From positions 1 to 64,000 of the forward strand of contig JAHJHI010000034.1 in NCBI GenBank assembly GCA_018824085.1: DNA of 64,000 bases, in the 5' to 3' direction. The position numbers and the translations under genes were made by a program. Each line of letters opens with the position of its first letter. Position 1 is the stretch's first letter. Source of the DNA: Gammaproteobacteria bacterium. GTDB taxonomy: Bacteria > Pseudomonadota > Gammaproteobacteria > Burkholderiales > Rhodocyclaceae. This document shows positions 16,012 to 54,798 of this stretch, piece after piece. The notes under the pieces were generated by a model, which was not told where the DNA came from, ran no database searches, and was given only the letters and a program-made list of their open reading frames with translations.

Positions 16012-17160
16012 ATGGCGGACCCCACCGTTGATTTTCCCGACGTCACCATGATCGAATTTGTTCAAAACCTCGGCCTGCGCTTCCTGGCCGAGCCCTGGAT
16101 ACCGCGTGTATTCATCATCATCGCCGTCACCGCGACGCTCAACGTCGTGGCCGAATACCTGCTGCGCAACGCGGCGCGCATCACCAAGCGCACGCGCACC
16201 GTGTGGGACGACGCGCTGGTCAGCTGCGCGAGCCGGCCCATGCTCATGATCATCTGGCTGCTCGGCTTCGCGCTTGCCGCAAAGGTGCTGCAGACGCATA
16301 TCGACGAACCCTTCCTCGATTACGTGGAGCCGGTGCGCAACATCGGTGTCGTCGCCTGTCTCGCGTGGTTCCTGCTGCGATTCAGCGGCCGGGTCGGCGA
16401 GGACATCATCGCTGCGCGCATCGAGCGTGGCGAGGAGATCGACCGCACGACGGTCGACGCGCTGAGCAAACTGGCGCGCCTCATCGTCGTCGTGGCGGCC
16501 GTGCTGATCACGCTGCAGACGATGGGCGTGAGCATTGCCGGCGTGCTCACGCTGGGTGGCATCGGCGGCATCGCCGTGGGTTTCGCGGCGAAGGACCTGC
16601 TGGCCAACTTCTTCGGCGGCCTCACCATCTATCTGGACCGGCCGTTCAGCGTCGGCGAATGGATACGCTCGCCGGACAAGGCGCTCGAAGGCACGGTGGA
16701 GTACATCAGCTGGCGTCATACCCGCATTCGCGCCTTCAACAAGAATCCGATCTACGTGCCGAACGCGCTGTTCACGACCATCGTCGTCGAGAACCCGTCT
16801 CGCATGACCAACCGGCGCATCCGCGAGGTCATCGGCGTGCGCTATGACGATCTGGCCAAGGTGGCGCCCATCGTTGCCGACATCAAGGAGATGTTGAAGA
16901 CGCATCCGGACATCGACACCACGCAGACGCTGATCGTGAACTTCAACGCCTTCGCCGCGTCGTCGCTCGACATCCTCATCTACACCTTCACGCGCACCGT
17001 CGTATGGGTGACCTATCACGAGGTGAAGCAGGACGTGCTGCTGAAGATTGCCGCCATCATCGAAGCGCACGGGGCGCAGATCGCATTCCCGACGCAGACG
17101 CTGCACGTCGGTTTCGACGGTGCGCCGCCGGTGCTGCCGGAGGAACGCAGCGCGCCTTGA
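16012..17160 (+). CDS. MscS-family mechanosensitive ion channel
   Basis: The protein has 382 residues. Several N-terminal membrane helices precede the pore helix region, a Gly/Ala-rich stretch LGGIGGIAVGFAAKDLLANF at about 179-198 that is the TM3 signature of MscS. The cytoplasmic beta domain follows (GLTIYLDRPFSVGEWI, GTVEYISWRHTRIR) with the usual NPIYVPNALFT. It opens under membrane tension to release solutes during hypo-osmotic shock. The stop codon lies inside a perfect FNR box (17157-17170) belonging to the next transcription unit. Confidence 0.88.
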   Translation: MADPTVDFPDVTMIEFVQNLGLRFLAEPWIPRVFIIIAVTATLNVVAEYLLRNAARITKRTRTVWDDALVSCASRPMLMIIWLLGFALAAKVLQTHIDEPFLDYVEPVRNIGVVACLAWFLLRFSGRVGEDIIAARIERGEEIDRTTVDALSKLARLIVVVAAVLITLQTMGVSIAGVLTLGGIGGIAVGFAAKDLLANFFGGLTIYLDRPFSVGEWIRSPDKALEGTVEYISWRHTRIRAFNKNPIYVPNALFTTIVVENPSRMTNRRIREVIGVRYDDLAKVAPIVADIKEMLKTHPDIDTTQTLIVNFNAFAASSLDILIYTFTRTVVWVTYHEVKQDVLLKIAAIIEAHGAQIAFPTQTLHVGFDGAPPVLPEERSAP

Positions 17161-17170
17161 TGCGGATCAA
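17157..17170 (+). promoter_or_regulatory. FNR/ANR/DNR-type box upstream of nnrS
   Basis: TTGAT-GCGG-ATCAA is a perfect match to the FNR consensus TTGAT-N4-ATCAA, overlapping the stop codon of the channel gene. A class II site would put the start of transcription near 17205, with an AT-rich -10 region at about 17194-17200 (AATATAT), which fits. It predicts activation of the nnrS-nsrR operon at low oxygen or by NO through a Dnr/Nnr protein. Confidence 0.78.
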
Positions 17171-17182
17171 GGACCGGCAGAA

Positions 17183-17225
17183 GGTATCCGGAGAATATAT
17201 GTTCAACCGCATTCTCCCGGATACC
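17183..17225 (+). repeat. Long inverted repeat in nnrS leader
   Basis: GGTATCCGGAGAAT (17183-17196) pairs with ATTCTCCCGGATACC (17211-17225) with one bulged base and a 14-base loop. The left arm holds a GGAG ribosome site; the right arm ends 4 bases before the nnrS ATG. As RNA it would bury the leader ribosome site; as DNA it surrounds the predicted start of transcription. Confidence 0.6.
17193..17204. promoter_or_regulatory. Candidate operator GAATATATGTTC at the -10 region
   Basis: GAATATATGTTC is a near-palindrome (GAA-N6-TTC, 10 of 12 positions symmetric) over the predicted -10 of the nnrS promoter. Since an NsrR-type repressor is encoded in the same operon, this is a reasonable place for its site, but the match to known NsrR sites is weak. 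Confidence 0.3.
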
Positions 17226-17255
17226 CGCCATGGCCGTCCTGCTCTCGATCGATGA
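17199..17255 (+). CDS. Possible 18-residue leader peptide ahead of nnrS
   Basis: An ATG 5 bases after GGAG opens an 18-codon frame (MFNRILPDTRHGRPALDR) that ends at 17255, overlapping the first 26 bases of nnrS in another frame. nnrS itself has no evident ribosome site, so this short frame could drive its translation by coupling. If transcription starts at about 17205 as the FNR box predicts, this ATG would not be transcribed; then the frame is chance. Low confidence. Confidence 0.25.
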   Translation: MFNRILPDTRHGRPALDR

Positions 17256-18465
17256 ACCCGCTTCGCCGGCGCCGGTGGCGCCGCGTCTTGACGCCTTTCT
17301 TGAAATGGCATTCCGGCCGATCTATCTGGCCGGTGCGCTGTGGGCCGCAGTCGCCGTCGTGCTCTGGGTGTTCGCGCCGGGCTGGCTGAACGGCACGCTG
17401 GGCGGCGTGGCCTGGCACGCGCACGAAATGCTGTGGGGTTTCATAGCCACCGTCGCAGTCGGTTTCCTGATGACGGCCGGCGCCGCATGGACCGGCATCA
17501 ATCCGGTGCAGGGGCGCTCGCTCGCAGTGCTGTGCGTGCTCTGGATCATCGCGCGGGCGGGTTTCCTCATGACTGGCGACACCGCCTTCCTGTCTGCCGC
17601 GCTGGCCGAAGTGGCGTTCTTCGCGCTGGCTGCCGCGGCACTGGCGAGAGCGGTCGTCGTGTCGCGCAACGTGCGCAACTACGGCGTGCCCCTGCTGCTG
17701 CTCGCACTGGGCGCCACCGACGCACTGTTTCTGGCTGCCGCGCGCACCGGTGACTACGCTGTGCTGATGCGCCACTTCAATGCCGGTCTGTTGTGCATGG
17801 CGCTGCTGACATTGCTGGTGGCGCGCCGTGTGATTCCGTTCTTCGCGATGCGCGCAGTGCCCGGGCTGACGGTGCCGCAGCACCTGCGCAGCGGACAGGT
17901 GCAACTGGCCGTCAGTGCGCTCGCCGTCGTCGCATTGCTGGCCGACCAGCGCGCCGTGCAGGCCGCGGCGCTGGCGATTGCCGGAGCCATCGCGCTTGTG
18001 CAGTGGCTGTCGTGGAAGCCCTGGGCGGTGCTGCACAAACCCCTTCTGTGGGTGCTTTACGTCGGCTACGGCGTGCTCGGTGCCGGCCTGCTGCTGGCAG
18101 CGCTCGACGCGGCGGGGCTTGTCGCGCGCGCCGCCTTGCCGGTGCACGTCATCGCGATGGGCGGCTTCTCCGTACTTATCATCGGCATGATCACGCGCAC
18201 CGCGCTCGGTCACCTCGGCCGTCCGCTGGAAACCGATCGCAGCATGGTCTGTGCGTATGCGCTGGTCATTGCGGCCACGGTGCTGCGCCTTGGCGCACTG
18301 TATCCGTCGGCCGTGGCGCCGCATCTGCTGCACGGCGCGGCGGCTCTGTGGGCGGGCGCGTTTGCGCTCTATCTGTGGCGCTTCGTGCCGATGATGATCC
18401 GCCCGCGGGCCGACCGTCCGGTGCCGGCGGCGGCGCCGGTCGCCATCACGCGCCGGGGTGCCTGA
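17230..18465 (+). CDS. nnrS: NnrS-family heme- and copper-containing membrane protein
   Basis: Polytopic membrane protein of 411 residues with about 12 hydrophobic helices. The family opening FRPIYLAGALWAA starts near residue 27, followed by the conserved WHAHEMLWGF with histidines. Later helices include MTAGAAWTG, RHFNAGLLCMALLTLLVARRV and the pattern IGMITRTALGHLGRP. NnrS proteins protect cells from nitric oxide and are regulated with denitrification genes; their chemistry is unsettled. The perfect FNR box upstream and nsrR 3 bases downstream support an NO role. The start is uncertain: no ribosome site precedes this ATG, and another in-frame ATG lies at 17305. Confidence 0.85.
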   Translation: MAVLLSIDEPASPAPVAPRLDAFLEMAFRPIYLAGALWAAVAVVLWVFAPGWLNGTLGGVAWHAHEMLWGFIATVAVGFLMTAGAAWTGINPVQGRSLAVLCVLWIIARAGFLMTGDTAFLSAALAEVAFFALAAAALARAVVVSRNVRNYGVPLLLLALGATDALFLAAARTGDYAVLMRHFNAGLLCMALLTLLVARRVIPFFAMRAVPGLTVPQHLRSGQVQLAVSALAVVALLADQRAVQAAALAIAGAIALVQWLSWKPWAVLHKPLLWVLYVGYGVLGAGLLLAALDAAGLVARAALPVHVIAMGGFSVLIIGMITRTALGHLGRPLETDRSMVCAYALVIAATVLRLGALYPSAVAPHLLHGAAALWAGAFALYLWRFVPMMIRPRADRPVPAAAPVAITRRGA

Positions 18466-18468
18466 ACG

Positions 18469-18906
18469 ATGCGCCTGACCAGGATGACGGACTACGCCAT
18501 GCGCCTGCTGATGCATGTCGGCAGCCATCCCGGGCGCTTGTGCACCATTGCCGAGATTGCCGGCGCCCACGATATTTCGGAGGCACATCTGATGAAGGTG
18601 ACGAATCATCTGGCGCGCGCCGGCTGGCTGGAAACGGTGCGTGGCAAAGGAGGCGGCATGCGCCTTGCCGGTGCGCCGCAGACCATCGTGCTGGGCGAGG
18701 TGGTGCGCAGCGTCGAGCCGGATTTCCGCCTTGTCGAATGCTTCGATCCCGACAGTGCCTGCCGTTTCGACGGCCGCTGCGGACTGAACGCCATCCTCGA
18801 CGCGGCACTGCACGACTTCCTCGCCAGACTCGACGGCCACACGCTGGCCGACATCCTGCCGGCAGGCGCGAGCGGCGCAGGCGTGCCGATGAGGCGCGCA
18901 TCATGA
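18469..18906 (+). CDS. nsrR: Rrf2-family NO-sensing repressor NsrR
   Basis: Rrf2 regulator of 145 residues. An N-terminal winged helix (MRLTRMTDYAMRLLMHVG opening, recognition region AHLMKVTNHLARAGWLETVRG) is followed by three cysteines, Cys91, Cys98 and Cys104, in the spacing of the NsrR Fe-S cluster loop. The opening and cysteine pattern fit NsrR better than IscR. Reaction of NO with the cluster releases DNA and derepresses NO-defence genes. It lies 3 bases after nnrS and overlaps the next gene by 4 bases, so it is autoregulated if it controls this operon. Confidence 0.87.
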   Translation: MRLTRMTDYAMRLLMHVGSHPGRLCTIAEIAGAHDISEAHLMKVTNHLARAGWLETVRGKGGGMRLAGAPQTIVLGEVVRSVEPDFRLVECFDPDSACRFDGRCGLNAILDAALHDFLARLDGHTLADILPAGASGAGVPMRRAS

Positions 18907-19205
18907 TGCCGACCGAGGCACAACTGGTCGCGGCGCTGCATGCGGTGCCGGATCCGGAGCTGTTCGAAAGCATCGTCGATCTCGGCCTGATCAAATCGAT
19001 TGCGGTGTCGGAAGCGCGCGTCGATGTGGTACTCATTCCCACCAGCGCGACCTGCCCGATGGGCGAGCTGCTGATCGACGACGCGCGCAGCGCGCTGCGC
19101 AGCGTATGCCCGGCCGCTTGCGACATCCGGGTCAGGTTCGACTGGGACACCGAGTGGCATCCTTCACGCATGAGTCCTGCGCTGCAGCAGCAGTTCGGCT
19201 GGTAG
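18903..19205 (+). CDS. DUF59/MIP18-family Fe-S cluster assembly factor
   Basis: The protein has 100 residues. It carries the family motif DPELFESIVDLGLI (about 17-30) and a conserved cysteine, Cys51, in TSATCPMGE, as in SufT, PaaD and MIP18. Such proteins help deliver Fe-S clusters to target enzymes. The start codon overlaps the nsrR stop. Placement beside an Fe-S NO sensor suggests a role in repairing or loading clusters damaged by NO. A role specific to the phenylacetate pathway (PaaD) is unlikely because no paa genes are near. Confidence 0.82.
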   Translation: MMPTEAQLVAALHAVPDPELFESIVDLGLIKSIAVSEARVDVVLIPTSATCPMGELLIDDARSALRSVCPAACDIRVRFDWDTEWHPSRMSPALQQQFGW

Positions 19206-19231
19206 CGCCCGTCAGTCACGAAAGGAAGACG

Positions 19232-19636
19232 ATGCAGATATCGAGTTTTGACGACCTTCTCGGCGCCGCGCGCCTGCAGCCCGAACCGCAGCGCCTGCTG
19301 TTCGTGTTTGCCGTGTCGGAACTGCCGGATGGCAGCTCCGACGCCGAACGAGCGCGCTACGAGGCGGGCGAGGGCGGCGCGCTGACGCCGCAGGTATGCG
19401 CCGACAAGACGCCGGACGAGCTGACCGACTTCGCCGCGCTGCTGCGCGAGTCGCAACAGTTCGCGCCGCAGTGGGTCATCGTGTTTGTCGCCGCGCTGTC
19501 CGGACGCGCCGGCCTCGCCGCGTCGAGCGAGGACGCCGCGCCGGTGCTCGAACACATGGTCGATGCGGTCAGGAACGGCCGGCTGGACGGCCTGATTCCG
19601 TTCGACCGCAGCGGCCACGCGGTCGATCTGCGGTGA
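19232..19636 (+). CDS. Conserved hypothetical protein in NO operon
   Basis: The protein has 134 residues, is probably cytosolic and has no signal or membrane segment. It opens MQISSFDDLLGAARLQPEPQ, then has LLFVFAVSELP and the C-terminal DGLIPFDRSGHAVDL. I recall short proteins of this kind in nnrS neighbourhoods of betaproteobacteria, sometimes with misleading enzyme names; no catalytic motif is visible. AAAGGAAG lies 5 bases before the ATG, and its stop overlaps the next GTG. Function unknown. Confidence 0.7.
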   Translation: MQISSFDDLLGAARLQPEPQRLLFVFAVSELPDGSSDAERARYEAGEGGALTPQVCADKTPDELTDFAALLRESQQFAPQWVIVFVAALSGRAGLAASSEDAAPVLEHMVDAVRNGRLDGLIPFDRSGHAVDLR

Positions 19637-20745
19637 ATGCACGGCGCACGCAGCTGTGGCGCGCGCTGGTCGGCGCGTGCGGGCTGCTTGCTGTACTGAA
19701 TCTTCTTGCCGGTGTCAGCGGAGGCTTGGCGCGACTCGGCCTGCCTCTGCCCGGCGCAGCCCTCGCGATGCACGGTGCCGTCATGGTGTGCGCGTTCTTC
19801 GGCACGGTGATCGCCCTTGAACGTGCGGTCGCGCTGCGGCGCCTGCCGGGGCTCGTCGCGCCGCTGGCAGCCGGCATCGGCGGCCTGCTGGCCTGGGGGC
19901 TGCAGTCGCCGTACGCGGCACAGGGTGCCTGGCTGCTGGCTGGCTGCGCGCTGGTGGCGCTCTATGTCCACGCCGGGCGCAGCCGCGCCTGGTCATTGCA
20001 CCTGACGGTCGAACTGCTCGGTGCGCTGTGCTGGCTGGCCGGCACCGTCGTCTGGCTGGCCGGCGACCTGGGCGCCGCCGTGACCGGCTGGGTGGCCTTT
20101 CTCGTGCTGACCATCGCCGCCGAGCGGCGCGAGCTGATGCAGATGGTCCGCCTGCCGGCGCTCGCGCGCCGGCTCTTCGTCGTCGCGGTATCGATGGCAC
20201 TGCTGGCGGTGGCGCTCGCGTGCGCGCCTGCGGCCGGACTGCCGGCAGCCGTGCCGCTGTGGTCGGCCTGCGCGCTGCTTGCGCTGTGGTTGCTGCGCTG
20301 GGATGTCGCGCCGCGCCACTGGCGCGCCGGTGGTTGGCGCGGCCACACCGCGCAATGCCTGACGCTGGGTTATCTGTGGTTGTTCGCCGGCGCCGTGCTC
20401 GGCCTGTATGGCACGGTGGTGCCGGGTGCGCTGGTGGCGACCGGCCTGCACGCCGTGTTGCTCGGCTTCGTGTTCGCGATGGTGTTCGGTCATGCGCCCA
20501 TCATCCTGCCGGCGCTGCTGCGCCTGCGTCCGTCGTATTCACGCTGGGTGCGGCTGCCGTTGTGGCTGCTCGCGGCAAGCCTGCTGTTGCGCATCGTCGC
20601 GACGGCGTATTCCCGTGCCGACTGGCTGGCGCTGTCGGGTGCCGGGCACGCGCTGGCCATCTTCGCGTTCGCGCTGCTGATGGTGCGGGCGGTTGCGGCG
20701 AGCGGGCACAATGACGGCAAGGAGGGCATGCCGGGTGCAGTCTGA
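19633..20745 (+). CDS. Polytopic membrane protein, possibly NnrS-related
   Basis: The protein has 370 residues with about 11-12 hydrophobic helices. Features reminiscent of NnrS are a His in a membrane helix (ALAMHGAVMVCAFFGTV) and a late FGHAPIILPALLRL segment with a buried His. These are candidate heme or metal ligands, but the resemblance is by eye only. The GTG start overlaps the stop of the preceding gene (GTGA). It is part of the coupled NO/FNR operon. Function unknown; NO detoxification or cytochrome-type electron transfer are guesses. Confidence 0.65.
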   Translation: MNARRTQLWRALVGACGLLAVLNLLAGVSGGLARLGLPLPGAALAMHGAVMVCAFFGTVIALERAVALRRLPGLVAPLAAGIGGLLAWGLQSPYAAQGAWLLAGCALVALYVHAGRSRAWSLHLTVELLGALCWLAGTVVWLAGDLGAAVTGWVAFLVLTIAAERRELMQMVRLPALARRLFVVAVSMALLAVALACAPAAGLPAAVPLWSACALLALWLLRWDVAPRHWRAGGWRGHTAQCLTLGYLWLFAGAVLGLYGTVVPGALVATGLHAVLLGFVFAMVFGHAPIILPALLRLRPSYSRWVRLPLWLLAASLLLRIVATAYSRADWLALSGAGHALAIFAFALLMVRAVAASGHNDGKEGMPGAV

Positions 20746-21430
20746 TCAACTGAATGCATGGCGAGGCGCCGAGCGCGCGCGCCTGCTGGCCTTGCGCGAG
20801 TCACAGCCGGCGCCGTTGCGGGCGGCGTGGAACGAACGCGTGACGGCCTTGCTGGAGCAGGGTTTTCCGGTGCTGCGCACGCTGACGACCGGTCTGTGCT
20901 GGCCGTACAAGTGCGAATTCGACGCGCGCTTCGCGATGCGCACATTGCGCGCGGCCGGTGCGCGCAGCGCGCTGCCGGCCGTCGTTGCCCGCGGCCAGCC
21001 GCTCGAGTTCCGGGAGTGGTGGCCGGGCGTGGCAATGACGCCGCGCGTGTTCAATCTGCCGGTGCCCGACGGTACCGAAGTGCTGCAGCCCGATGCGTTG
21101 CTGATTCCGCCGGTCGGGTTCGACGAGCGCGGCTACCGGCTTGGCTACGGCGGTGGCTTCTTCGACCGCACGCTCGCGGCGCGCGCGCCACAGCCGCTGA
21201 AGATTGCCGTCGGTTTCGAGGTGTCGCGCATGCCCACCATCCACCCGCAACCGTGGGACGTGCCGATGGATTTCGTGGTGACGGAGGCCGGCATCCATGC
21301 GGTCGAGGCCGACCGGTTGCGGCGGGTCGATGTGGCCGAATGCGTGCGTCTTTCCGACGCGCTGTTCGCGGCGCGCCAGGCCGGGCGGCCGATGACGGGC
21401 CGGCACGACGATTCGACGGAGGCGGGATGA
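20735..21430 (+). CDS. 5-formyltetrahydrofolate cyclo-ligase
   Basis: The protein has 231 residues and uses ATP to convert 5-formyl-THF to 5,10-methenyl-THF. The ligase signature LGYGGGFFDR lies near residues 136-145, with the conserved PPVGFDERGYR just before it. It is longer than the short MTHFS enzymes. The GTG start overlaps the end of the previous gene by 11 bases and has AAGGAGG about 9 bases before it; an ATG at 20728 is out of frame. Why a folate enzyme sits in this operon is unclear; it may only be carried along. Confidence 0.83.
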   Translation: MQSDQLNAWRGAERARLLALRESQPAPLRAAWNERVTALLEQGFPVLRTLTTGLCWPYKCEFDARFAMRTLRAAGARSALPAVVARGQPLEFREWWPGVAMTPRVFNLPVPDGTEVLQPDALLIPPVGFDERGYRLGYGGGFFDRTLAARAPQPLKIAVGFEVSRMPTIHPQPWDVPMDFVVTEAGIHAVEADRLRRVDVAECVRLSDALFAARQAGRPMTGRHDDSTEAG

Positions 21431-22875
21431 GCGACATGACGGGCATCGGGACGGGCGCGCTGCGAGACCTTCTGGCGGATTTGCTGACGGCGTTCGAGCA
21501 AGGACTGGTCGAGCGCCGGCCCGTTGTCCGGCTGTGCCTGCTGACCGCGCTGGCCGGCGAGCACACGCTGCTCATCGGCCCGCCCGGCACGGCCAAGAGT
21601 GAGCTGGCGCGGCGCCTGCACGCGCTGTTCCGCGACGCGCGCTACTTCGAGCGGCTGCTGACCCGCTTTTCGGTGCCGGAAGAGCTGTTCGGCCCGCTGT
21701 CGATACGCGCGCTGGAGCAGGACCGCTATGAACGCCACACCGACGGTTTCTTGCCGGACGCGACGATCGCCTTCATCGACGAGGTATTCAAGGCGAACAG
21801 CGCCATCCTGAACGCGCTGCTCACGCTGCTGAACGAACGCGAATTCGACAACGGTGCCGGGCGCCAGCGCTGCCCGCTGGTCAGTGTCATCGGTGCGACC
21901 AACGCCGTTCCGGAGGACGAGGTGGCCGACGCCTTCTTCGACCGCTTCCTCGTGCGCGTGCCGGTCGAGCCGGTCAGCGCCGAAGGGTTTCCGGCGTTGC
22001 TCGCGGCCGGTGACTTGCGCACCGGCCCTGCACCGGCGCACGCGACGCTGGGCGAAGACGAGCTGCAGGCACTGGCCGCCGCGGCGCGGGCGGTCACGCT
22101 TCCCGAACAGGTGCTCGGCGTGCTGGCCGGCCTGCGCGCACATCTGACGGACGAAGGCGTCTATGTGTCGGACCGCCGCTGGGTGAAGATGGCCTGGTTG
22201 TTGCGCGTGGCCGCAGCCAGTGAAGGCCGTGCCGCGGTCGGCCTGTGGGATCTGCTGTTGCTGCCGGCCTGCGTCGGCGCGGACGCGGCGAGCCAGACGG
22301 GCGTGGCCGACTGGCTGCACGCCCGTCTGGGCGTGCGCGAGGCGTTTGCGCCGGCCCGGCTGACACGCGTCGTGCAGGCGTTCCAGGCGCAACTGGAAGC
22401 GGAACAGAACGCCAGCGACCTCGATTACGACGACGCGGGCCGGCTGCGCTTTTCGCCCGACGCGGATGGCGCGATGAACGAGGACGTGGCCGAACGCTTC
22501 GGCGACGCCAAGGGCGGTGCCGGCGCGCTGCGCATGAGCTACAGCCGGCGCCGGCGTTACGGGCCGGCACACATCGGCGCACGCACCGCCCAGATCGACG
22601 ACGTGCTCGCGCGCATCGCCGCGTACGTCGACGAACTCACGGCCGAACGCGCGGCACTGGCACTGTGCCGCGCCGGCACGCTGTGGCTGGACGACGCCGC
22701 GCTCGCGCGCGCGGACGCCCATCTCGCCGCCACGGCCGACGTCATCGCCGAACTGGCAGAGCGCGCCCGCGATGCACGGCGCGGCTTTGAAAACCTGCCG
22801 CGCCTGCCGCAGCACATCGACGCGCCGCTGACCGGCGCGCTGCCGGAGCCGGTCTTGCACGAGCCGCTGGCGTGA
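21427..22875 (+). CDS. ravA: MoxR-family AAA+ ATPase RavA
   Basis: AAA+ ATPase of 482 residues (E. coli RavA has 498). Walker A GPPGTAKS is at 51-58, the RavA-like RFSVPEELFGPLSI at 80-93, Walker B with Asp118-Glu119 in TIAFIDEVFK, and sensor 1 GATNAVPEDE near 158. A long C-terminal region corresponds to the LARA and discontinuous domains, which distinguishes it from the shorter NorQ and CbbQ. RavA works with ViaA as a chaperone pair linked to Fe-S respiratory enzymes. The ATG overlaps the ligase stop, and viaA overlaps the end of this gene. Confidence 0.88.
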   Translation: MSDMTGIGTGALRDLLADLLTAFEQGLVERRPVVRLCLLTALAGEHTLLIGPPGTAKSELARRLHALFRDARYFERLLTRFSVPEELFGPLSIRALEQDRYERHTDGFLPDATIAFIDEVFKANSAILNALLTLLNEREFDNGAGRQRCPLVSVIGATNAVPEDEVADAFFDRFLVRVPVEPVSAEGFPALLAAGDLRTGPAPAHATLGEDELQALAAAARAVTLPEQVLGVLAGLRAHLTDEGVYVSDRRWVKMAWLLRVAAASEGRAAVGLWDLLLLPACVGADAASQTGVADWLHARLGVREAFAPARLTRVVQAFQAQLEAEQNASDLDYDDAGRLRFSPDADGAMNEDVAERFGDAKGGAGALRMSYSRRRRYGPAHIGARTAQIDDVLARIAAYVDELTAERAALALCRAGTLWLDDAALARADAHLAATADVIAELAERARDARRGFENLPRLPQHIDAPLTGALPEPVLHEPLA

Positions 22876-24482
22876 GCGCGCCGCGACAACCGGCGCCGTT
22901 GCTGTTCGAGTCACGCGAAGCGCGGCTCGGCGCGCTGGATGCGCTGCCGCGCACGCTGTGGCTGGGCGGACTCACGCACGCGCAGGGCAGGCTGGAGCCC
23001 CGGCTCGGCGCGCTGGTCGCGCTGCGCGACGCGCTGATCAAGGGGCGCGTGCCGCCAGCGCACGACTGGCAATGGCCGGCACCGGACATCGCGCACGCGC
23101 TGTGCGACAGCTTTGCCGAACTGGATCTCGCGGCCTGCTGCACCGGCCGCCAGGAGTTGACGGACGTCGTCGTGCAGAGCCTGTTGTTCCATCTCGATTT
23201 CATCGTCGACTATCGCGACCGCGGCGCCGACGACGCGCAGGCGACCGACATGGCGCTGCAGGCCTTCGCGGCGGACTGGCAGGACCGGCGCGGTCAGATG
23301 GACGAATTGCTGGACGTGTTCGGCAAGCTGCCGGACGACGGCAACGCGCGTTGGGATCTCATTCCCGGTTTGCTGCGCAGCGAAGGCTGGCGTGAGTTGC
23401 TGCGCATCCGGCGCGTGCTTGAACGGTTGCCGGAGCTCGCACAGTGCATCCGCCGCCTCGGTCGGGCGCGGCCGGCGGACGAGCCGGACGCCGCAAGTTC
23501 CGCTCCGCAGCCCGTCGAGCGCGAGGCGGTGGCGCGCAGCATGCAGCGACGCACTGTGCATGTGCCCGACATGCCGGGCGAGACACGCGGCATCCATCGC
23601 GCCGACCGCATCGCGCGCATGCTGCCGGCCGAAGCCATGCTGCTCGCGCATCCGGTGCTGCGGCTGGTGTGGCATGCACGGCGCGCCGAACGCACGCTGC
23701 TGTGCTACGAGGACGACGACCGCCTGCAGCAACAGCACCACGGTGACGCGCCCGTGCAGCTGCCGCGTCCGGATGCGCTGCATGAGCGGCGACTCGAGAT
23801 GGGGCCGCTGCTGGTGTGCGTCGATACCTCGGGTTCGATGCAGGGCAGCGCCGGACAGGTGGCCAAGGCGGTCGTGCTGGAGGCGGTGCGCAGCGCGCAT
23901 GCGCAGGGCCGCGCCTGCCACGTGTTCGCGTTCGGCGGGCCGGACGAGGTGATCGATGTCGAGATCGGCGTCAATGCCGCAGGCATCGGCGCGCTGGCGG
24001 GCTTTCTGGGGCAGGGCTTTCGCGGCGGCACCGACATCTGCGGCGTGCTGGAGTTGTCGCTTGCACGGCTGGAACAGGCGGCCTGGCGCAGCGCCGACCT
24101 GCTCATCGCATCGGACGGCGAATTCGGCGCCACACCGGCGCTGGTTGCCCGGCTGGACGGCGCCAAGGCTTCGCTCGGCCTGCGTGTGCAGGGCGTACTG
24201 ATCGGCGACCGCGAAACCATCGGCTTTCTCGAAGTGGCCGATGCCATCCATCCGGTGCGCGACTGGCGCCGCTATGGCGACGACGCGCACGGCGCCGGAG
24301 ACTCGCCGGTGCATACGCACCAGCTCACGGCGCTCTATTTCCCGGGTGCGTTGCGCACCCGGCAGAACATCGACGCAACCGTCAGCGGCGATGTTGCGTC
24401 GCGCGCGGTACGGGCCGGCCTGAGGCGTGGCGACCCCCTGCCCGATGCGCTGTGCAACCCCGAACGGAGTGACCCGACGTGA
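22872..24482 (+). CDS. viaA: VWA-domain protein ViaA, RavA partner
   Basis: The protein has 536 residues. An N-terminal helical domain (about 1-300) is followed by a von Willebrand A domain starting LLVCVDTSGSMQG, with the MIDAS residues Asp318, Ser320 and Ser322. The later metal-site residues appear in GFRGGTDICG and LIASDGEFG. ViaA stimulates the RavA ATPase and contacts target enzymes such as fumarate reductase or Nuo in E. coli. GTG overlaps the ravA stop (GTGA), so the pair is translationally coupled. It is about 50 residues longer than E. coli ViaA. NorD was considered, but the RavA partner argues against it. Confidence 0.86.
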   Translation: MSAPRQPAPLLFESREARLGALDALPRTLWLGGLTHAQGRLEPRLGALVALRDALIKGRVPPAHDWQWPAPDIAHALCDSFAELDLAACCTGRQELTDVVVQSLLFHLDFIVDYRDRGADDAQATDMALQAFAADWQDRRGQMDELLDVFGKLPDDGNARWDLIPGLLRSEGWRELLRIRRVLERLPELAQCIRRLGRARPADEPDAASSAPQPVEREAVARSMQRRTVHVPDMPGETRGIHRADRIARMLPAEAMLLAHPVLRLVWHARRAERTLLCYEDDDRLQQQHHGDAPVQLPRPDALHERRLEMGPLLVCVDTSGSMQGSAGQVAKAVVLEAVRSAHAQGRACHVFAFGGPDEVIDVEIGVNAAGIGALAGFLGQGFRGGTDICGVLELSLARLEQAAWRSADLLIASDGEFGATPALVARLDGAKASLGLRVQGVLIGDRETIGFLEVADAIHPVRDWRRYGDDAHGAGDSPVHTHQLTALYFPGALRTRQNIDATVSGDVASRAVRAGLRRGDPLPDALCNPERSDPT

Positions 24483-25348
24483 CCTTTGCCGCCGACTACC
24501 TGATGCAGATTGAATCCATCGCCGCGCGCACGACGCTGCCGCGCGTGCATGCACTGCATCTGCCGCCGGCGCGCCCGGTCGAGGACTGCCGGGACGGGCG
24601 CAGCGGACATGCGCGCGGGGAGTTCTGCGCACTCGAGCTGGAGGACGGATCGATCGGCCTGTCCTACGTCCTGCTGGACGACACGCTGGAGCGGCTGCGC
24701 GACAGCCCGGAGCGATCCGCGCTGCGTGGCCTTGACGCGCTGGCGCTCGCGCGGCGCTACGTGTCCGGCACCGGCGTCGAACGCACGCTCGGCTTCGTCT
24801 GCGCCAATGCCGTTACGCGCTGCCTGTTCGATCGCGCCGGTTTCCGGCCCGACGGCAGCGCTGACTCCATCGGCGGCATGGACCCGCAGCCGGGCGAGCG
24901 CATCGGCATGATCGGGCTGTTCGGCCCGCTGGTGGCGCGCATTGTCGAGGCCGGCGCGCGGCTCACCGTCGTCGAGCTGGACGAGCGTGCAGTCGGAGAG
25001 CATGACGGATGGCGCGTCACGACGGACGCGCGCGAGCTCGAAAGCTGCGCCAAGGTATTGTCCACCAGCACCTTGCTGCTCAATGACACGCTGGACCGCA
25101 TGCTCGGGCATTGCAGTGAATCGGCCTGGTTCGCCATGGTCGGGCCGAGCGCCGGCTGCCTGCCGGACGCGCTGTTCGCGCGCGGCGTCACCGTGCTCGG
25201 CGGCAGCTGGGTCGAAGATCGCGAGGCCTTCATCGACGGACTCACATCGGGTGACAAGGGCAAGCGCAAGGGCCGCAAGGCGACGCGCAAGTTTTCGCTG
25301 ACTGTGGCGGGCTATCCCGGCCTGCCGGCGCTGCTCGAACGCCTGTGA
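24479..25348 (+). CDS. DUF364 family protein (putative heavy-metal chelation domain)
   Basis: The protein has 289 residues with a two-part layout typical of DUF364: an N-terminal domain with GLSYVLLDD and LGFVCANAVTRCLF, and a Rossmann-like C-terminal domain from GERIGMIGLFGPLV through LSTSTLLLNDTLDRML and FAMVGPSAGCLPDALF. The family is associated with metal or metallophore handling, but no reaction is established. A Lys/Arg-rich patch (KGKRKGRKATRK) precedes the last strand. GTG overlaps the viaA stop, so it belongs to the same operon. A link between RavA-ViaA and metal centres is plausible from context only. Confidence 0.72.
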   Translation: MTFAADYLMQIESIAARTTLPRVHALHLPPARPVEDCRDGRSGHARGEFCALELEDGSIGLSYVLLDDTLERLRDSPERSALRGLDALALARRYVSGTGVERTLGFVCANAVTRCLFDRAGFRPDGSADSIGGMDPQPGERIGMIGLFGPLVARIVEAGARLTVVELDERAVGEHDGWRVTTDARELESCAKVLSTSTLLLNDTLDRMLGHCSESAWFAMVGPSAGCLPDALFARGVTVLGGSWVEDREAFIDGLTSGDKGKRKGRKATRKFSLTVAGYPGLPALLERL

Positions 25349-25755
25349 CAGCGTTGCGCACGCCGGCCGCCTGCGCTGTCATGCTCGTCGTCATTCCGCT
25401 GCTGACGACGGCCTGCTCCGACGGCGCGGCGCCGCCGGACGCTCCCGTCGCGCTCCCGGCGAAGACTGCGCCGGACGACCATCCTGCCGACCGCTGGCTC
25501 GGTACGTGGCGAGGACCGGAGGGCACGTCGCTGCGGCTGTCCGGTGGCGCCGGGCGATACGACATCACGGTGCAGGATCTGGATGGCCCGCGGGGGTTCC
25601 GGGGAGTGGAGGCGGACGGGGGCATCCGCTTCGAGCGGAACGGAAGGCAAGTCGTGATCCGTGCGAGCGATGGCGCCGGAACAGGCATGAAATGGCTGGG
25701 TGACAAGTCTGACTGTCTGACGCTGCAGCCCGGGGAGGGCTACTGCCGGGATTGA
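25345..25755 (+). CDS. Small lipoprotein, last gene of the NO/FNR operon
   Basis: The protein has 136 residues with a lipoprotein signal: hydrophobic VMLVVIPLL followed by lipobox LTTAC (Cys24). The mature part has a Pro/Asp-rich linker, then a compact domain starting WLGTWRGPEGTSLRLSGG that resembles lipocalin-like or META-type small beta folds and contains two cysteines near the end. GTG overlaps the stop of the DUF364 gene. It is convergent with the OmpA-like gene. No function assigned. Confidence 0.68.
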   Translation: MTALRTPAACAVMLVVIPLLTTACSDGAAPPDAPVALPAKTAPDDHPADRWLGTWRGPEGTSLRLSGGAGRYDITVQDLDGPRGFRGVEADGGIRFERNGRQVVIRASDGAGTGMKWLGDKSDCLTLQPGEGYCRD

Positions 25756-38024: not shown

Positions 38025-38432
38025 TCAATGCCGGTCGAAGCGCAGGTGCCGGAAGGCAGCGGGCGCGTGTGACACCACCGAAGAGCAGACCAGCAACAGC
38101 CAGAAAAGTGCTGCCGCGCGCTCCGGCATGGCCGCCATCGTGGCGACGACGACAAGCTTGAGCGGAATGAACAGGCCGGCCAGTTCGACCGCGTGGCGGG
38201 GTTTGGTCCAGAGCTCTATACCGTAGAGCGACAGGCCGGTACCGAACAGGAGTGCGATGGCCGCGATGCGGTGGCTGCCGTCGCTGCCGCCGTGCAGCAG
38301 CGCTGCGCCGACGAGCACGACGCCCACCAGATGCAGCGAGCGCAGCGCGACCAGCAACCAGCGCCGACCGGGAAAATCGCGACGGTGCCCCGGCGGGTGA
38401 GCGGGGGCGTCGAGGGTGGTATGGGCTGACAT
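38025..38432 (-). CDS. Small four-helix membrane protein, unknown function
   Basis: The protein has 135 residues. After a polar N-terminus, four hydrophobic helices follow (LHLVGVVLVGAALL, IAAIALLFGTGLSLYGIEL, LAGLFIPLKLVVVATMAAM, LFWLLLVCSSVVSH). Histidines and charged residues sit at helix ends, but no family motif is recognised. The ATG at 38432 is chosen over an in-frame start at 38492 because the extra 20 residues look non-coding. It lies 49 bases downstream of the MFS gene on the same strand and may be co-transcribed. Confidence 0.6.
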   Translation of the reverse strand: MSAHTTLDAPAHPPGHRRDFPGRRWLLVALRSLHLVGVVLVGAALLHGGSDGSHRIAAIALLFGTGLSLYGIELWTKPRHAVELAGLFIPLKLVVVATMAAMPERAAALFWLLLVCSSVVSHAPAAFRHLRFDRH

Positions 38433-41540: not shown

Positions 41541-41990
41541 TCAGGCGCGGCGCAGCGGCCAGTGCAGCAGCGGGCCGATGGCGTCCAGCGTGTTCTTCAG
41601 CAACAGGCCGTATTCGGTGTCGCCTTCCATGACCAGCGCGCGTTCGAAGAACAGCCGGTCGGCGTCGTCGTCGCCGCGCAGCAGGCGCAGGTAGCTGGCC
41701 GCGTCGGCGGCGATGCGCAGCGTCGCCGGACCGGACGCCGGCGCGCTGCGGAAATGCCCGTCGCGCAGCGTGACGCGGCAGCGCAGGCCGAAATCGCGGA
41801 CTTCGATATCCACCGCGTGGCCGGCCAGCCGTGCTGCGGCGTCGGCCGGCAGGCGCGGGCGCAGGACGCGCTCGAGCGCGAGTGCGAGCAAGTGCGACGG
41901 CGGGTGTACCGGCAGGCGCGCGACGAGTTCGCGCAGCACGGGCGGCAACGGCGGCAGTACCCGATGTGACGGTGTGGCTGAGGGGGTCAT
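41541..41990 (-). CDS. ubiT: UbiT-like SCP2-domain protein, anaerobic ubiquinone synthesis
   Basis: The protein has 149 residues with an SCP2 lipid-binding fold (VDIEVRDFGLRCRVTLRDGHF, then PATLRIAADAASYLRLLRG and the late DTEYGLLLKNTLDAIG). UbiT accompanies UbiU and UbiV in the oxygen-independent ubiquinone pathway and is thought to bind isoprenoid intermediates. Its start overlaps the ubiV stop by 4 bases. The SCP2 fold alone would be ambiguous; the adjacent ubiU and ubiV decide it. Confidence 0.86.
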   Translation of the reverse strand: MTPSATPSHRVLPPLPPVLRELVARLPVHPPSHLLALALERVLRPRLPADAAARLAGHAVDIEVRDFGLRCRVTLRDGHFRSAPASGPATLRIAADAASYLRLLRGDDDADRLFFERALVMEGDTEYGLLLKNTLDAIGPLLHWPLRRA

Positions 41991-42916
41991 GCGGGAGGTC
42001 TTTCCAGTCCGGCGCGCCGGTGCGCGAAACCATTCACGAGCCCGCCCGGCAGGCTCAGCGCGGCCAGGGTTGCCGCGGCGTCGTGTGCGTCGGCGTCGCC
42101 GTTATAGACGCGCTCGAACAGGTCAATCACCGTGCCGAAATGATGCGCGCCCGGTGACAGCCGTGCCCGGCTCACGCCGGCACGGCGCAGCGCCGCCGCA
42201 TCGCCGATCAGGCAGTGCTGGGCGGCCGACTGCGTCTGGATGCCGTTCAGTGCGAGGAAGGGGGTGCCGTCACCGGTGTTCAGCTGCAGTCCGTCCGGAT
42301 GCTCGATGCAGCGGAAGGCGCATTCGTCCTTGTTCAGGTGGAGGTGGCGCGCGGTGAAGCAGCGCGCCGAGAAAGCCAGCGGCAGGCGACCGAAGGCGAA
42401 CACCTCGGTGGCGATGGGCGTGTCGGCCGCCGGTCCGCCCTGCACCGGCGCCTGTGGCGGATTGATCTGCGCCAGCGCGTCGAGCCCGAGCTCGACCGGC
42501 GCCACCCAGCGTACGGCGCCGAGCCGTGCGTGCTCGCGCAGTGCCGGCTCGCTGTAGATGTTGATGTGCGGGCCGAGCACGAAGGGCCGGCCGGCGAGTG
42601 CGCGCAGTGCCGAGGCGTCACCCGCCTCGACCCGGAACGCGTCCTGCTGTGCGAGGCGCCGCATGCCGCGCAGATCGGCGTCCGATTCGAGCAGCACCTG
42701 ACTGGCCAGCACGACTTCCTTGCCGCAGGCCGCCAGTTCGCGCGCCAGCGCCAGCCAGTCGTCGTGCCTCATTTCGTGGCGGCGTGCGCACACCACTTCG
42801 CCGAGCACCACGGTGTCGGCCGCCGAATCGGCCACGTCGGCATAGAAATCGAGCAGCGTGCGACGCGGCCAGTAGTAGAGAACCGGGCCGACGGTGAGGG
42901 AAATGCGTGTCGTCAT
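41987..42916 (-). CDS. ubiV: UbiV, U32-family Fe-S protein for O2-independent ubiquinone hydroxylation
   Basis: The protein has 309 residues, peptidase U32-like. The four cluster cysteines are Cys43 (VVCARRHEMR), Cys186, Cys199 and Cys203 (SARCFTARHLHLNKDECAFRC), matching the spacing of E. coli UbiV. With UbiU it hydroxylates the quinone ring without oxygen, using prephenate as the oxygen donor in E. coli. It is 25 bases downstream of ubiU and overlaps ubiT. Expression with narGHJI would supply ubiquinone during nitrate respiration. Confidence 0.93.
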   Translation of the reverse strand: MTTRISLTVGPVLYYWPRRTLLDFYADVADSAADTVVLGEVVCARRHEMRHDDWLALARELAACGKEVVLASQVLLESDADLRGMRRLAQQDAFRVEAGDASALRALAGRPFVLGPHINIYSEPALREHARLGAVRWVAPVELGLDALAQINPPQAPVQGGPAADTPIATEVFAFGRLPLAFSARCFTARHLHLNKDECAFRCIEHPDGLQLNTGDGTPFLALNGIQTQSAAQHCLIGDAAALRRAGVSRARLSPGAHHFGTVIDLFERVYNGDADAHDAAATLAALSLPGGLVNGFAHRRAGLERPPA

Positions 42917-42941
42917 GGCTTTCGGGCAAGCGGGGAAGGTG

Positions 42942-43982
42942 TCATCGCCAGGGGCGGTCGTAGGCGCCCAGCGTGTGCTGCTGGCCTTCCGACCAGCGGC
43001 CGAGCGTGGTCGTCCATTGAGGCTGCACGCTGAAGCGCGCGGGTTGCGCGGCGCAGGCGTCGATGGCGGCGCGCCATACGCGCGTCACCTGTTCGACATA
43101 GGCCGGGCTGCGCTGACGGCCCTCGATCTTGATCGCGGCGACGCCCATGGCCGTGAGCCGGGGCAGCAATGACAGCGTATTCAGGCTGGTCGGTTCCTCC
43201 AGCGCATAGTCGCGCGTGCCCTCGACGTCGAAGCGGCCCTTGCACAGCGTCGGATAGCCGCGCGCCTCGTCTGGCGCGTAGCGGTCGATCAGCACGCCGT
43301 TGAGCCGGGCGTCGACGCCGTCGGCGCCGTCCGTCCAGCGCACCGCGGACGGCGGAGAGCACACGCCGGCCGTGTTCGGCGACTGACCGGTGACGTAGGA
43401 CGACAACGCGCAGCGGCCCTCGACCATGACGCACAGGCTGCCGAAGCCGAACACTTCGATCTCGACGCTGCTGTGGCGGCACAGCTGTTCGACCTGCGCC
43501 AGCGTGAGCACGCGCGGCAGCACGGCGCGCCGGATGCCGTAGCGCTCGCGGTAGAACTCGATCGCCTCCCACGTGGTGGCGGAGGCCTGCACCGACAGGT
43601 GCAGACGCAGTTGCGGGTGATGGTCGCGCGCGTAGGCGAGCACGGCCGTGTCGGCGCAGATGAGCGCGTCGACGCCGAGCCCGGCAGCGGCATCCACGGC
43701 ACGCCACCAGCGCTGCGGCGCGTGCGCGTCGGCGAAGGTGTTGAGCGCCATCAGCACCTCGCGCCCCAGGGCGTGGGCGTGGGCGATGCCTTCGCGCGCC
43801 TGCGCGATGTCGAAATTCAGGCCGGCGAAGTTGCGTGCATTGGTGGCGTCCTTCAGGCCGATGTAGACGGCGTCGGCGCCGGCGTCGATGGCCAGCGTCA
43901 GCGCGCGCAGTGAACCGGCGGGGCAGACGAGCCGGGGAGGGCGCGGCGATGCGACGTGGCTGGCAGCAGGCGAAGATGTCAT
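42942..43982 (-). CDS. ubiU: UbiU, U32-family Fe-S protein for O2-independent ubiquinone hydroxylation
   Basis: The protein has 346 residues. It opens with the U32 start LVCPAGSLRALTLAIDAGAD and carries the cluster cysteines Cys184, Cys191, Cys208 and Cys247 (FGSLCVMVEGRCALSSY, NTAGVCSPP, YPTLCKGRF), the UbiU pattern. It is slightly longer than E. coli UbiU at the N-terminus. The ATG at 43982 lies 25 bases after the parvulin gene. Partner of UbiV. YegQ/RlhA-type U32 proteins were considered, but the ubiV-ubiT neighbours settle the call. Confidence 0.93.
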   Translation of the reverse strand: MTSSPAASHVASPRPPRLVCPAGSLRALTLAIDAGADAVYIGLKDATNARNFAGLNFDIAQAREGIAHAHALGREVLMALNTFADAHAPQRWWRAVDAAAGLGVDALICADTAVLAYARDHHPQLRLHLSVQASATTWEAIEFYRERYGIRRAVLPRVLTLAQVEQLCRHSSVEIEVFGFGSLCVMVEGRCALSSYVTGQSPNTAGVCSPPSAVRWTDGADGVDARLNGVLIDRYAPDEARGYPTLCKGRFDVEGTRDYALEEPTSLNTLSLLPRLTAMGVAAIKIEGRQRSPAYVEQVTRVWRAAIDACAAQPARFSVQPQWTTTLGRWSEGQQHTLGAYDRPWR

Positions 43983-44007
43983 GGTGCGGCCGGCAACCCG
44001 GAGGGGG

Positions 44008-44787
44008 TCATTGCACGAGCGGCGTGTCGGCCGCGTCCAGTTCGACCCCTTCGAGTTCTGCGGCGCCCGCGAGCAGCGCGAGGTACTGGCGCAGCGCGGT
44101 AACGAAGCTCTGCTGGCGCAGCGATGCGGCGACGGTGCCGCGGACGGATTCGAAGTCCTGCGCGACGCCGGCTTCGCGTGCGACGACGTCGACCACGTGC
44201 AGGCCGAAGCGGCTGTGCACCAGGCGCGGCAGCACGCCGACGTCCTGCTGGCCGAACAGAGCACGGGCGAATTCCGGTGCGCAGTCGCTGGCGGCGAGCC
44301 AGCCCAGGTCGCCACCCTGTGCGCCGCTGGGGCAGTTCGAAAACTGTCCCGCGGCATGGGCGAAGAGGTCTTCGCCGTCGGCGTGGCCGCGCACGTCGAG
44401 CAGGATGGTTTCCGCGCGCCGGCGCAGCGCGACGACGTCGACGCCGGGTGTCACGGCGAACAGGATGTGGCGCAGCTGCAGGCGCTCGCCTTCGGTGTAG
44501 GTCGCGCGATGCGCGGCGTAGTGGCGGCGGCAGGCGTCTTCCGACGGTTCGGGCACCTGTATCGCCTCGCTGACCAGCGCGTCGATCGCGGTGGCGGCGT
44601 CTTCGCTGATCAGTCCGTCGGGTGTCGCGCGGTCGTCCTGCGACAGCAGGCCGGCGCACTGCGCCGACTGGCGCAGCAGCTCGGTGCAGGCGCGGCTGCG
44701 CAAGGTTTCGTCGGTCAGCATCTCGTCCGGGCCGTTGATCGGCACGCCATTCACGCGTGCGACACGATGCAGGTTCTCGTTGAGCAT
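44008..44787 (-). CDS. Parvulin-type peptidyl-prolyl isomerase in the nar cluster
   Basis: The protein has 259 residues. The parvulin domain at about 118-220 contains LRHILFAVTPGVD, SNCPSGAQGGDLGWL and HSRFGLHVVDVV. The N-terminal 115 residues are helical, as in NifM and SurA. There is no clear signal peptide, so it probably acts in the cytoplasm. Such a gene often follows narI in betaproteobacteria and gammaproteobacteria and may assist nitrate reductase folding or maturation; no function is proven here. It lies 11 bases after narI. Confidence 0.83.
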   Translation of the reverse strand: MLNENLHRVARVNGVPINGPDEMLTDETLRSRACTELLRQSAQCAGLLSQDDRATPDGLISEDAATAIDALVSEAIQVPEPSEDACRRHYAAHRATYTEGERLQLRHILFAVTPGVDVVALRRRAETILLDVRGHADGEDLFAHAAGQFSNCPSGAQGGDLGWLAASDCAPEFARALFGQQDVGVLPRLVHSRFGLHVVDVVAREAGVAQDFESVRGTVAASLRQQSFVTALRQYLALLAGAAELEGVELDAADTPLVQ

Positions 44788-44798
44788 GACGGTGCTCC

Positions 44799-45536
44799 TC
44801 AGACGCCGGCGCCGGGCTGGCGTGGCTGGTTGTGTCCGGCCGGCAGGTTGAGCCGGCGTGCGCGAACCACCTGATAGGGGCGGAACAGATAGGCGACCGA
44901 CGCAAAGCCGCTCCACACATGCACCATGCGGGTGAAGGGGAACACCAGGAAGATCGTCATGCCGAGGAACATGTGGCTCTTGAACACCCAGCCTGCGCCG
45001 GCCAGCAGTTCCGGAGCGCCGCTGCGGAAGGTGACGATGCGCTGCGCCCATTCGGCGAGCAGCATCATCATGCTGCCGTCCAGATGCTGCGCCGACAGCG
45101 GAATGGTGGCCAGGCCGAGCAGCAGTTGCAGCCACAGCAGCAGCACGATGACGATGTCGCTGGTCTTGGACGTGGCGCGGATGCGCGGTTCGGTCAGGCG
45201 CCGGTGCAGCAGCAGCGAGAGGCCGACGAAGCCGAGCAGGCCGGCGACGCCGCCGGAGATCATCGCGATCAGCTGCTTCGTGCCGGCGCCGATGAAGGGC
45301 TCGTAGATGAAGTGCGGCGTCAGCATGCCGAAGAAGTGGCCGAAGAACAGGAACAGCACGCCGACGTGGAACAGGTTGCTGCCCAGGCGCAACTGGCCGC
45401 GGCGCAGCAGCTGGGAAGAGTCGCTTTTCCAGGTGTACTGGTCGCGGTCGAAGCGCAGCAGGCTGCCGAGGAAGAACACCGCCAGGCAGATGTAGGGGTA
45501 GTAGCCGAACAGCAGGTTGTCGAGCCATGAGGTCAT
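44799..45536 (-). CDS. narI: Respiratory nitrate reductase gamma subunit (cytochrome b)
   Basis: Membrane anchor of 245 residues with five helices that oxidises quinol and passes electrons through two b hemes to NarH. Conserved histidines appear in NLFHVGVLFLFFGHFFGM, and in the later helices FKSHMFLGMTIF and FTRMVHVW. Length and opening (MTSWLDNLLFGYYPYICLA) match NarI. The ATG overlaps the narJ stop by 4 bases. Confidence 0.95.
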   Translation of the reverse strand: MTSWLDNLLFGYYPYICLAVFFLGSLLRFDRDQYTWKSDSSQLLRRGQLRLGSNLFHVGVLFLFFGHFFGMLTPHFIYEPFIGAGTKQLIAMISGGVAGLLGFVGLSLLLHRRLTEPRIRATSKTSDIVIVLLLWLQLLLGLATIPLSAQHLDGSMMMLLAEWAQRIVTFRSGAPELLAGAGWVFKSHMFLGMTIFLVFPFTRMVHVWSGFASVAYLFRPYQVVRARRLNLPAGHNQPRQPGAGV

Positions 45537-46219: not shown

Positions 46220-46307
46220 TCAGGTGGTCCTCCTGATGGCGGTCCGGAGGACACAGGTGCCGTCCTCCAGAAAATGGGTTGCGGCGCTTGCGGCAGCGCA
46301 CGCGCCG

Positions 46308-46324
46308 ACCGCCGGGCCGGCGGT
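46308..46324 (-). repeat. Inverted repeat in the narH-narJ spacer
   Basis: ACCGCCGG-G-CCGGCGGT is perfectly symmetric. As RNA it gives a 6-bp stem with a 5-base loop in the 150-base gap between narH and narJ, the largest gap inside the operon. It may stabilise narGH mRNA or lower narJI output. Confidence 0.4.
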
Positions 46325-46369
46325 GCAAAGCGGGCCCTGTGCGAACACAGCGAGCGTGGCGGCGAACAT

Positions 46370-47893
<1,524 letters not shown>

Positions 47894-47910
47894 GTCATCT
47901 CTCCTGACGG

Positions 47911-51684: not shown

Positions 51685-51712
51685 GTGTGCTCTCCGTTGT
51701 GAGGCAATCGGA

Positions 51713-53368: not shown

Positions 53369-53394
53369 GATCGTTCTCCGGTGGATGTGGGGGC

Positions 53395-54645: not shown

Positions 54646-54703
54646 GTCGGAATCCTCCCTTTGAGACAGGACCGATCTTAGGGAGAGGGGGCGAATGACA
54701 ACA

Positions 54704-54724
54704 TCCTTCGGTGGTAGCGAAGGA
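54704..54724 (-). repeat. Hairpin in narK1 leader
   Basis: TCCTTCG and CGAAGGA form a perfect 7-bp stem around GTGGTAG, about 60-80 bases before narK1. If transcription starts near 54764 it lies in the mRNA leader. Confidence 0.4.
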
Positions 54725-54735
54725 GGCGTCCGGAA

Positions 54736-54775: not shown

Positions 54776-54798
54776 CCGGGCCTGTTTTTCATGCCGGA

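Follow-up and report, generated by a model that had tools for sequence, protein, structure and literature searches.

A RavA-ViaA-DUF364 gene cassette that accompanies tungsten aldehyde oxidoreductase more than nitric oxide genes in Rhodocyclaceae

The stretch of DNA analysed here, called the window, covers 64,000 nucleotides of contig JAHJHI010000034.1 (assembly GCA_018824085.1, Rhodocyclaceae) and contains a ten-gene operon made up of a nitric oxide (NO)/anoxia-response block and a separate cassette of three genes, ravA-viaA-DUF364. This cassette is tied to tungsten aldehyde oxidoreductase (AOR) more than to NO genes: its link with AOR is strong, while NarG and NirS track it weakly. Because the cassette goes with AOR more than with NO genes, it probably helps to build or restart this enzyme. 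Our preferred interpretation, to which we assign a probability of about 0.52, is that the cassette may be an accessory machine for tungsten AOR of the AorABC type, which loads or restores the enzyme and which in Methyloversatilis would be placed under FNR-type and possibly NsrR control.

The co-occurrence test was prompted by aor genes spotted beside the cassette while neighbouring genes were being read. AOR was scored as PF01314, and the family sample consisted of 199 genomes, 46 with ViaA and 153 without. It turned out that AOR was present in 44 of the 46 ViaA-positive genomes versus 46 of the 153 ViaA-negative ones (odds ratio (OR) 51, p 1.7e-16). As controls, NarG over its cut-off was found in 18 of 46 versus 39 of 153 genomes (OR 1.9, p 0.09), NirS in 37 of 46 versus 89 of 153 (OR 3.0, p 0.008), and the membrane protein encoded in the NO block in 22 of 46 versus 61 of 153 (OR 1.4, p 0.39). 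Within the 126 NirS-positive genomes, AOR scoring above 390 bits still separated 34 of 37 genomes with ViaA from 30 of 89 without it (p 8e-10). The link was also seen when genomes were shuffled inside the 22 genera holding ViaA (p 2e-4) and when genera were collapsed (p 5e-6). Since ViaA presence is scattered on a tree of 24 AorB proteins (8 changes against a shuffled mean of 7.5), the link cannot be put down to a single clade. Nitrate reductase was considered as a client of the cassette, for narG lies in the window, but was set aside on its weak association.

Two further samples gave the same picture. In the order sample (250 genomes, ViaA called at E <1e-60), AOR was found in 8 of 9 ViaA-positive versus 22 of 241 ViaA-negative genomes (p 1.4e-7); four weak VWA rows were dropped, and including those the count becomes 8 of 13 (p 1.5e-5). 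This sample shares eight members of the window's family with the family sample, and outside that family AOR occurred in 6 of 7 versus 19 of 235 genomes (p 4e-6). In the class sample of 122 genomes the counts were 4 of 5 versus 15 of 117 (p 0.002), after four weak rows (E 5e-4 to 5e-5), one of them AOR-positive, had been dropped; two of the four genomes with both ViaA and AOR also belong to the earlier samples.

AOR genes also stand beside the cassette. The aorABCD genes run into ravA-viaA on the same strand in three loci (L021, L034 and L040, the last two being near-copies), are divergent from ravA-viaA in L073 and convergent with it in L020 and L037; in L077 and L079 the cassette has aor genes no more than 10 kb away. 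Thereby 8 of 74 distinct viaA clusters have AOR genes within 10 kb, compared with 0.41 expected (p 1.4e-8), where the expectation assumes 1.5 AOR copies per 4.2 Mb and the 74 loci come from protein clustering. In the window's own genome, aorABCD (L177, contig C13, 2343-12314) is located beside genes for a pyrroloquinoline quinone (PQQ) dehydrogenase, a cytochrome c and a solute-binding protein, a set which we take to resemble xoxF-G-J. As the PQQ dehydrogenase set adjoins aorABCD, this genome places an alcohol oxidiser next to an aldehyde oxidiser.

The cassette recurs in a regular form. Among the 46 viaA genomes, ravA is directly upstream of viaA in 40 and DUF364 directly downstream in 31, 25 of which have an identical 4-nt overlap, and all three genes were called in 24 of the 64 named DUF364 loci. 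In the window the first gene (21427..22875, plus strand) encodes a RavA-like MoxR AAA+ ATPase with a MoxR core and lid; PF07728 and PF17868 are present in 28 of 28 members and the Walker residues are invariant. The second (22872..24482, plus strand, GTG start) encodes a ViaA-like protein with a C-terminal VWA domain, whose metal-ion-dependent adhesion site (MIDAS) motif DxSxS..T..D has D318, S320, S322 and T387 invariant in 28 members and D415 in at least 90% (L041 has A). It matches the VWA_CoxE model (34.1 bits), and our search found no solved structural relative of ViaA.

These two proteins resemble E. coli RavA-ViaA in that the AAA+ core and lid align with residues 5-335 of the E. coli RavA structure in PDB, the partner is a VWA protein with MIDAS, and ravA directly precedes viaA. 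They differ in that the cassette has DUF364 as a third gene and a link with AOR, and in that both proteins fall far below the NCBIfam equivalog cut-offs (RavA 261.6 bits, cut-off 681; ViaA 148.8 bits, cut-off 500). They also differ in lacking the LARA domain: the alignment with the PDB RavA ends at 333-335, and no such domain was found by Pfam in 28 members at E 0.1. The E. coli pair is said to act on Nuo, and one might suppose that the cassette likewise acts on respiratory complexes (Nuo, Frd) and that its AOR link is an ecological by-product, which we regard as improbable. The aligned RavA core speaks for such a role, and so does the action of E. coli RavA-ViaA on Frd in the available part of PMC10585395, where LARA is placed at residues 336-433. 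What speaks against it is that ViaA occurs in only 46 of the 199 family genomes and follows AOR even within genera, whereas Nuo/Frd-type complexes are expected in nearly all the sampled genomes.

The third gene (24479..25348, plus strand, GTG start) encodes a DUF4213-DUF364 protein (PF04016 97.8 bits, gathering score 23; DUF4213 28.4 bits), which has the same Rossmann-like domain as its structural matches Dhaf4260 (3L5O, E 4.6e-12) and 3NPG (E 1.8e-16). According to the accessible portion of PMC2954201, DUF364 has no function assigned, its gene context is the handling of tungstate, molybdate, vanadium and iron or metal transport, and its cleft suits pterin- or flavin-like ligands; unlike in the window, no link to a MoxR/VWA pair appears in that portion. 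This context agrees with a different explanation, a rather unlikely one in our judgement, that the cassette serves tungsten/molybdenum supply or another enzyme of these metals and merely co-occurs with AOR. In 49 genomes from 50 of the 64 named DUF364 loci, PF01314 was present in 27 of 27 whose DUF364 locus also has viaA (24 above 390 bits). It was present, often in several copies, in 16 of the 22 whose DUF364 locus is without ravA-viaA as well (ravA-viaA elsewhere in the genome was not checked for all), and in L049 and L050 DUF364 lies near TorD-like and molybdopterin oxidoreductase genes, as judged by eye; both observations suit a supply role. Nevertheless, the recurrent recognised neighbours of the cassette are aorABCD and not transport genes, and NarG, a molybdenum enzyme, is not clearly associated with ViaA.

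Two more observations concern the surroundings of these genes. In L066-L069, DUF364 directly follows two conserved genes that form a pair (products of about 458 and 460 aa), with no ravA-viaA beside it; nitrogenase-like genes were considered for these neighbours, which by eye are a membrane protein and a GTPase-like protein. Besides, the window encodes at 38025-38357 (minus strand) a 110-aa membrane protein that is 63% identical to a small protein in 11 loci (9 distinct genomes), all with viaA, although the loci compared were biased towards viaA. Its homologue is directly downstream of DUF364 in L034, L035, L040 and L071, and it is possibly a fourth component of the cassette.

Several facts weigh against an AOR-dedicated machine. 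As for the genes, the place after viaA holds another gene in 12 of the 46 genomes (in three more the contig stops there), 3 of the 46 ViaA-positive genomes have no DUF364, and a decayed cassette in G379 (L166, 8226-9796) retains an open DUF364 beside a viaA cut to 207 aa, with no ravA found next to it, while AOR is kept. As for the distribution, AOR occurs without ViaA in 46 of the 199 family genomes and so does not depend on the cassette, and four ViaA-positive genomes have no AOR (G240, 98% complete; G292, 98%; G436, 89%; G553, 100%). In most cases of co-occurrence the genes are not adjacent, and the statistics were made without a species tree. The AOR genes of the window's own genome are on a separate contig, and in the 300 nt upstream of 23 aorA genes there was no FNR box with one mismatch or fewer, so shared FNR control of AOR and the cassette is not seen. 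Finally, Aromatoleum aromaticum EbN1 (G343) has AOR and neither ViaA (E 1e-20) nor DUF364. The part of PMC9295118 available to us reports its native AOR as active with 1.46 of 2 W, which excludes a strict insertase role for EbN1, and the better guess is an accessory, conditional or restoring role. The same source reports for recombinant AOR from the host A. evansii an activity higher by a factor of 3.6 at about equal W content; this gain fits help by the trio and is confounded by aorDE, the tag and tungstate.

The sequence-only reading had taken all ten genes to look like one dedicated system for repairing metal centres damaged by NO, those of Fe-S respiratory enzymes in particular, and had proposed to look for the gene order in other genomes. 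The comparison covered 76 loci, searched by tblastn with all ten proteins, together with the gene neighbourhoods in those family-sample genomes that carry viaA. Apart from the window, only 6 of 74 distinct viaA loci join the NO block (nnrS-nsrR-DUF59-gene 4-membrane-cyclo-ligase) to ravA-viaA-DUF364, namely L032 (M. discipulorum), L124-L127 (the window's genus) and L033 (AG20, another betaproteobacterium), with the membrane gene and the fourth gene in swapped order in L033 and L126. Elsewhere, ravA-viaA(-DUF364) has varied neighbours or stands beside AOR genes, and in one member of the genus (G360) ViaA, DUF364, the membrane protein and AOR are all absent, as is any NarG above the cut-off. The whole ten-gene order was therefore rejected as a conserved system: beyond the window, the two halves share a stretch in five Methyloversatilis-type loci and AG20, so that the order is largely without conservation beyond close strains.

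The idea of NO-damage repair keeps some points in its favour, including the FNR-type box and NsrR-like operator upstream, narG within the same window, and the habits of the DUF59-membrane pair, which elsewhere is found with nsrR, DUF2249, hemerythrin, nir or nar genes in several genomes (10 of 16 stretches had been picked near NirS/NarG). With the halves joined in so few loci, with no association of ViaA with the NO-linked membrane protein and with little association with NarG or NirS, we think it quite unlikely as the function of the ten genes together. The proposed repair system is mainly a lineage-specific fusion, and the AOR-linked cassette is the lasting finding.

The membrane protein of the NO block is present in 83 of the 199 family genomes. 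We read 16 of its neighbourhoods, ten chosen for a nearby NirS or NarG and six as high-scoring matches, and the gene was called in 15 of them. In all 15 of these other genomes DUF59 precedes it directly or one small gene away, the small gene being a DUF2249 gene where checked; an nsrR-like gene is nearby in 6 of 15 (three of those among the six unpicked), and hemerythrin follows in some. Going by this pairing and these neighbours, the membrane protein regularly accompanies DUF59 and belongs in NO and denitrification surroundings. It was also compared with NnrS, and a relationship was rejected (hhalign probability 0.4%; one weak NnrS match, E 0.086, in 19 members). A nitrate respiration island is located in the window at 41541-57474 (minus strand), with narXL-type regulators, a narK pair, narGHJI, a peptidyl-prolyl-isomerase-like gene and ubiTUV-like genes; narG was named by TIGR01580 and the rest by eye.

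The operon begins with an FNR-type box, TTGATGCGGATCAA (17157..17170, plus strand), which is centred about 66 nt upstream of nnrS and overlaps the 3' end of an upstream mscS-like gene. It is the sole perfect match in the window, where 0.02 would be expected by shuffling, and the 4.28 Mb genome has four perfect boxes and none for the pattern read backwards as a control. A second of these has the gene of a Crp/FNR-type regulator on one side and a hemN-like gene on the other, which makes the motif credible in this genome. The other three boxes (L001, L003, L004) precede P-type ATPase-like, hemN-like and iscS-like genes (hemN-like by Pfam, the others by eye). A GAATAT-like -10 element stands at a distance from the middle of the box that fits, by eye, a class II FNR promoter; a scan with the sigma-70 consensus found no site.

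Among the seven loci with the operon, three (the window, L033 and L126) have a perfect FNR-type box upstream of nnrS; in L125 and L127 the box departs from the pattern at two positions, and in L032 and L124, by eye, at three. In every one of the seven the best match to an NsrR operator-like 23-mer falls just downstream of the box (in the window AAGGTATCCGGAGAATATATGTT, 17181..17203, plus strand), at a start-to-start spacing of 19 nt in five loci, 24 in the window and 37 in L126. Scored against what we presume to be the NsrR consensus, the 23-mer is a strong match in L033 (18/22) and L127 (16/22), whereas its 11/22 in the window is at chance level (p 0.47). For free-standing ravA genes, an FNR-type box with one mismatch or fewer was found in 7 of 58 upstream stretches, none of them perfect, compared with 0.05 expected by base shuffling. 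Judged from these motifs, in Methyloversatilis the cassette is possibly under FNR-type and perhaps NsrR control.

Downstream of the box, ten open reading frames follow on the plus strand, and the junction gaps of +3, -4, +26, -4, -11, -4, -4, -4 and -4 confirm the earlier count of seven overlapping junctions in nine. Gene names were assessed with the Pfam and NCBIfam profile libraries. The operon starts with nnrS (17230..18465; PF05940, 309 bits) and an NsrR-like Rrf2 regulator (18469..18906; PF02082, 114 bits), which exceeds the Rrf2 superfamily cut-off and stays below the equivalog cut-offs of NsrR (108.9 bits, cut-off 182) and RirA (116.7 bits, cut-off 193). Then come a DUF59/FeS_assembly_P protein (18903..19205; PF01883, 55.7 bits), gene 4 for a 134-aa protein present in all six other loci sharing the operon (19232..19636), gene 5 for the 370-aa polytopic membrane protein with invariant His residues, which adjoins DUF59 (19633..20745, GTG start), and a 5-formyltetrahydrofolate cyclo-ligase family gene (20735..21430, GTG start; TIGR02727 121.8 bits, cut-off 84.9). 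Behind the cassette stands gene 10, for a short putative lipoprotein (25345..25755). Genes 4, 5 and 10 have no family match in Pfam or NCBIfam. Because gene 10 has a weak coding score and no tblastn match at E 0.01 in any locus compared (L020 onward), its membership of the operon is doubtful. Apart from this gene, the names given from sequence alone (nnrS, Rrf2/NsrR-like, DUF59, cyclo-ligase, RavA-like, ViaA-like, DUF364) agree with the profiles, and the picture of one operon led by a perfect FNR box, with NO-type genes in its first half, a MoxR/VWA pair and a likely metal-centre link, holds.

How the cassette might act can be drawn from related systems. In the available parts of PMC9976466 and PMC13036017, NorQ-NorD is proposed to remodel NO reductase for FeB iron insertion, with the VWA MIDAS binding the target. 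The cassette shares this MoxR/VWA logic with a metalloenzyme partner; unlike NorQ, the window's AAA protein matches the RavA model, the proposed partner is a tungsten enzyme, and DUF364 is added. No norCB was found by Pfam among the ten operon genes (other loci were not searched for it). CoxD and CbbQ-CbbO are likewise MoxR-type factors dedicated to one enzyme, and AOR belongs to an enzyme family other than that of CO dehydrogenase. No CO dehydrogenase or Rubisco genes were recognised by eye among the neighbour clusters, where no dedicated search was made for them. Proposed in the accessible text of PMC2997495 to build the [CuSMoO2] centre of Mo-Cu CO dehydrogenase, the MoxR-like CoxD is the nearest published precedent for a MoxR factor on a Mo/W enzyme. 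For AOR itself, AorD and AorE of the Aromatoleum aor operon are putative W-cofactor maturation factors (PMC6365974, as far as its text was available), and so have the same enzyme as the proposed target of the cassette. Unlike the cassette proteins they are MoaD-like small proteins; aorD accompanies aorB in 19 of 20 AOR stretches read, whether or not the genome has ViaA.

By analogy with NorQ-NorD and CoxD, a RavA-like hexamer would drive ViaA, whose MIDAS face may dock on AOR and open or twist it. Once open, the enzyme could have its W-bis-pterin/Fe-S site loaded, or restored if stuck or damaged, while DUF364 may bind or modify tungsten or the pterin ligand. Through FNR-type and possibly NsrR control, Methyloversatilis would produce the cassette in response to anoxia and NO. 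In a bolder version, RavA-ViaA-DUF364 might be an activase for a tungsten enzyme: the MoxR/VWA motor, equipped with a W/pterin-handling protein of its own, would reload or restart AOR, and in Methyloversatilis it would be wired to NO/oxygen sensing so as to restore NO-damaged AOR; we put it forward tentatively, as less probable than the general accessory role. Among the matches listed from the open-licence literature, no publication connects AOR or the insertion of tungsten with RavA, with ViaA or with a MoxR factor, and no bench data on a role of the cassette for AOR were found in that literature.

We know of no client for most MoxR/VWA pairs. The strong, control-tested genomic link between AOR and the cassette joins three questions, namely the clients of MoxR/VWA pairs, the function of DUF364, and how tungsten reaches or stays in AOR. 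The enzyme has biotechnological interest as well, and the cassette is found in a strain of the species that serves as its expression host.

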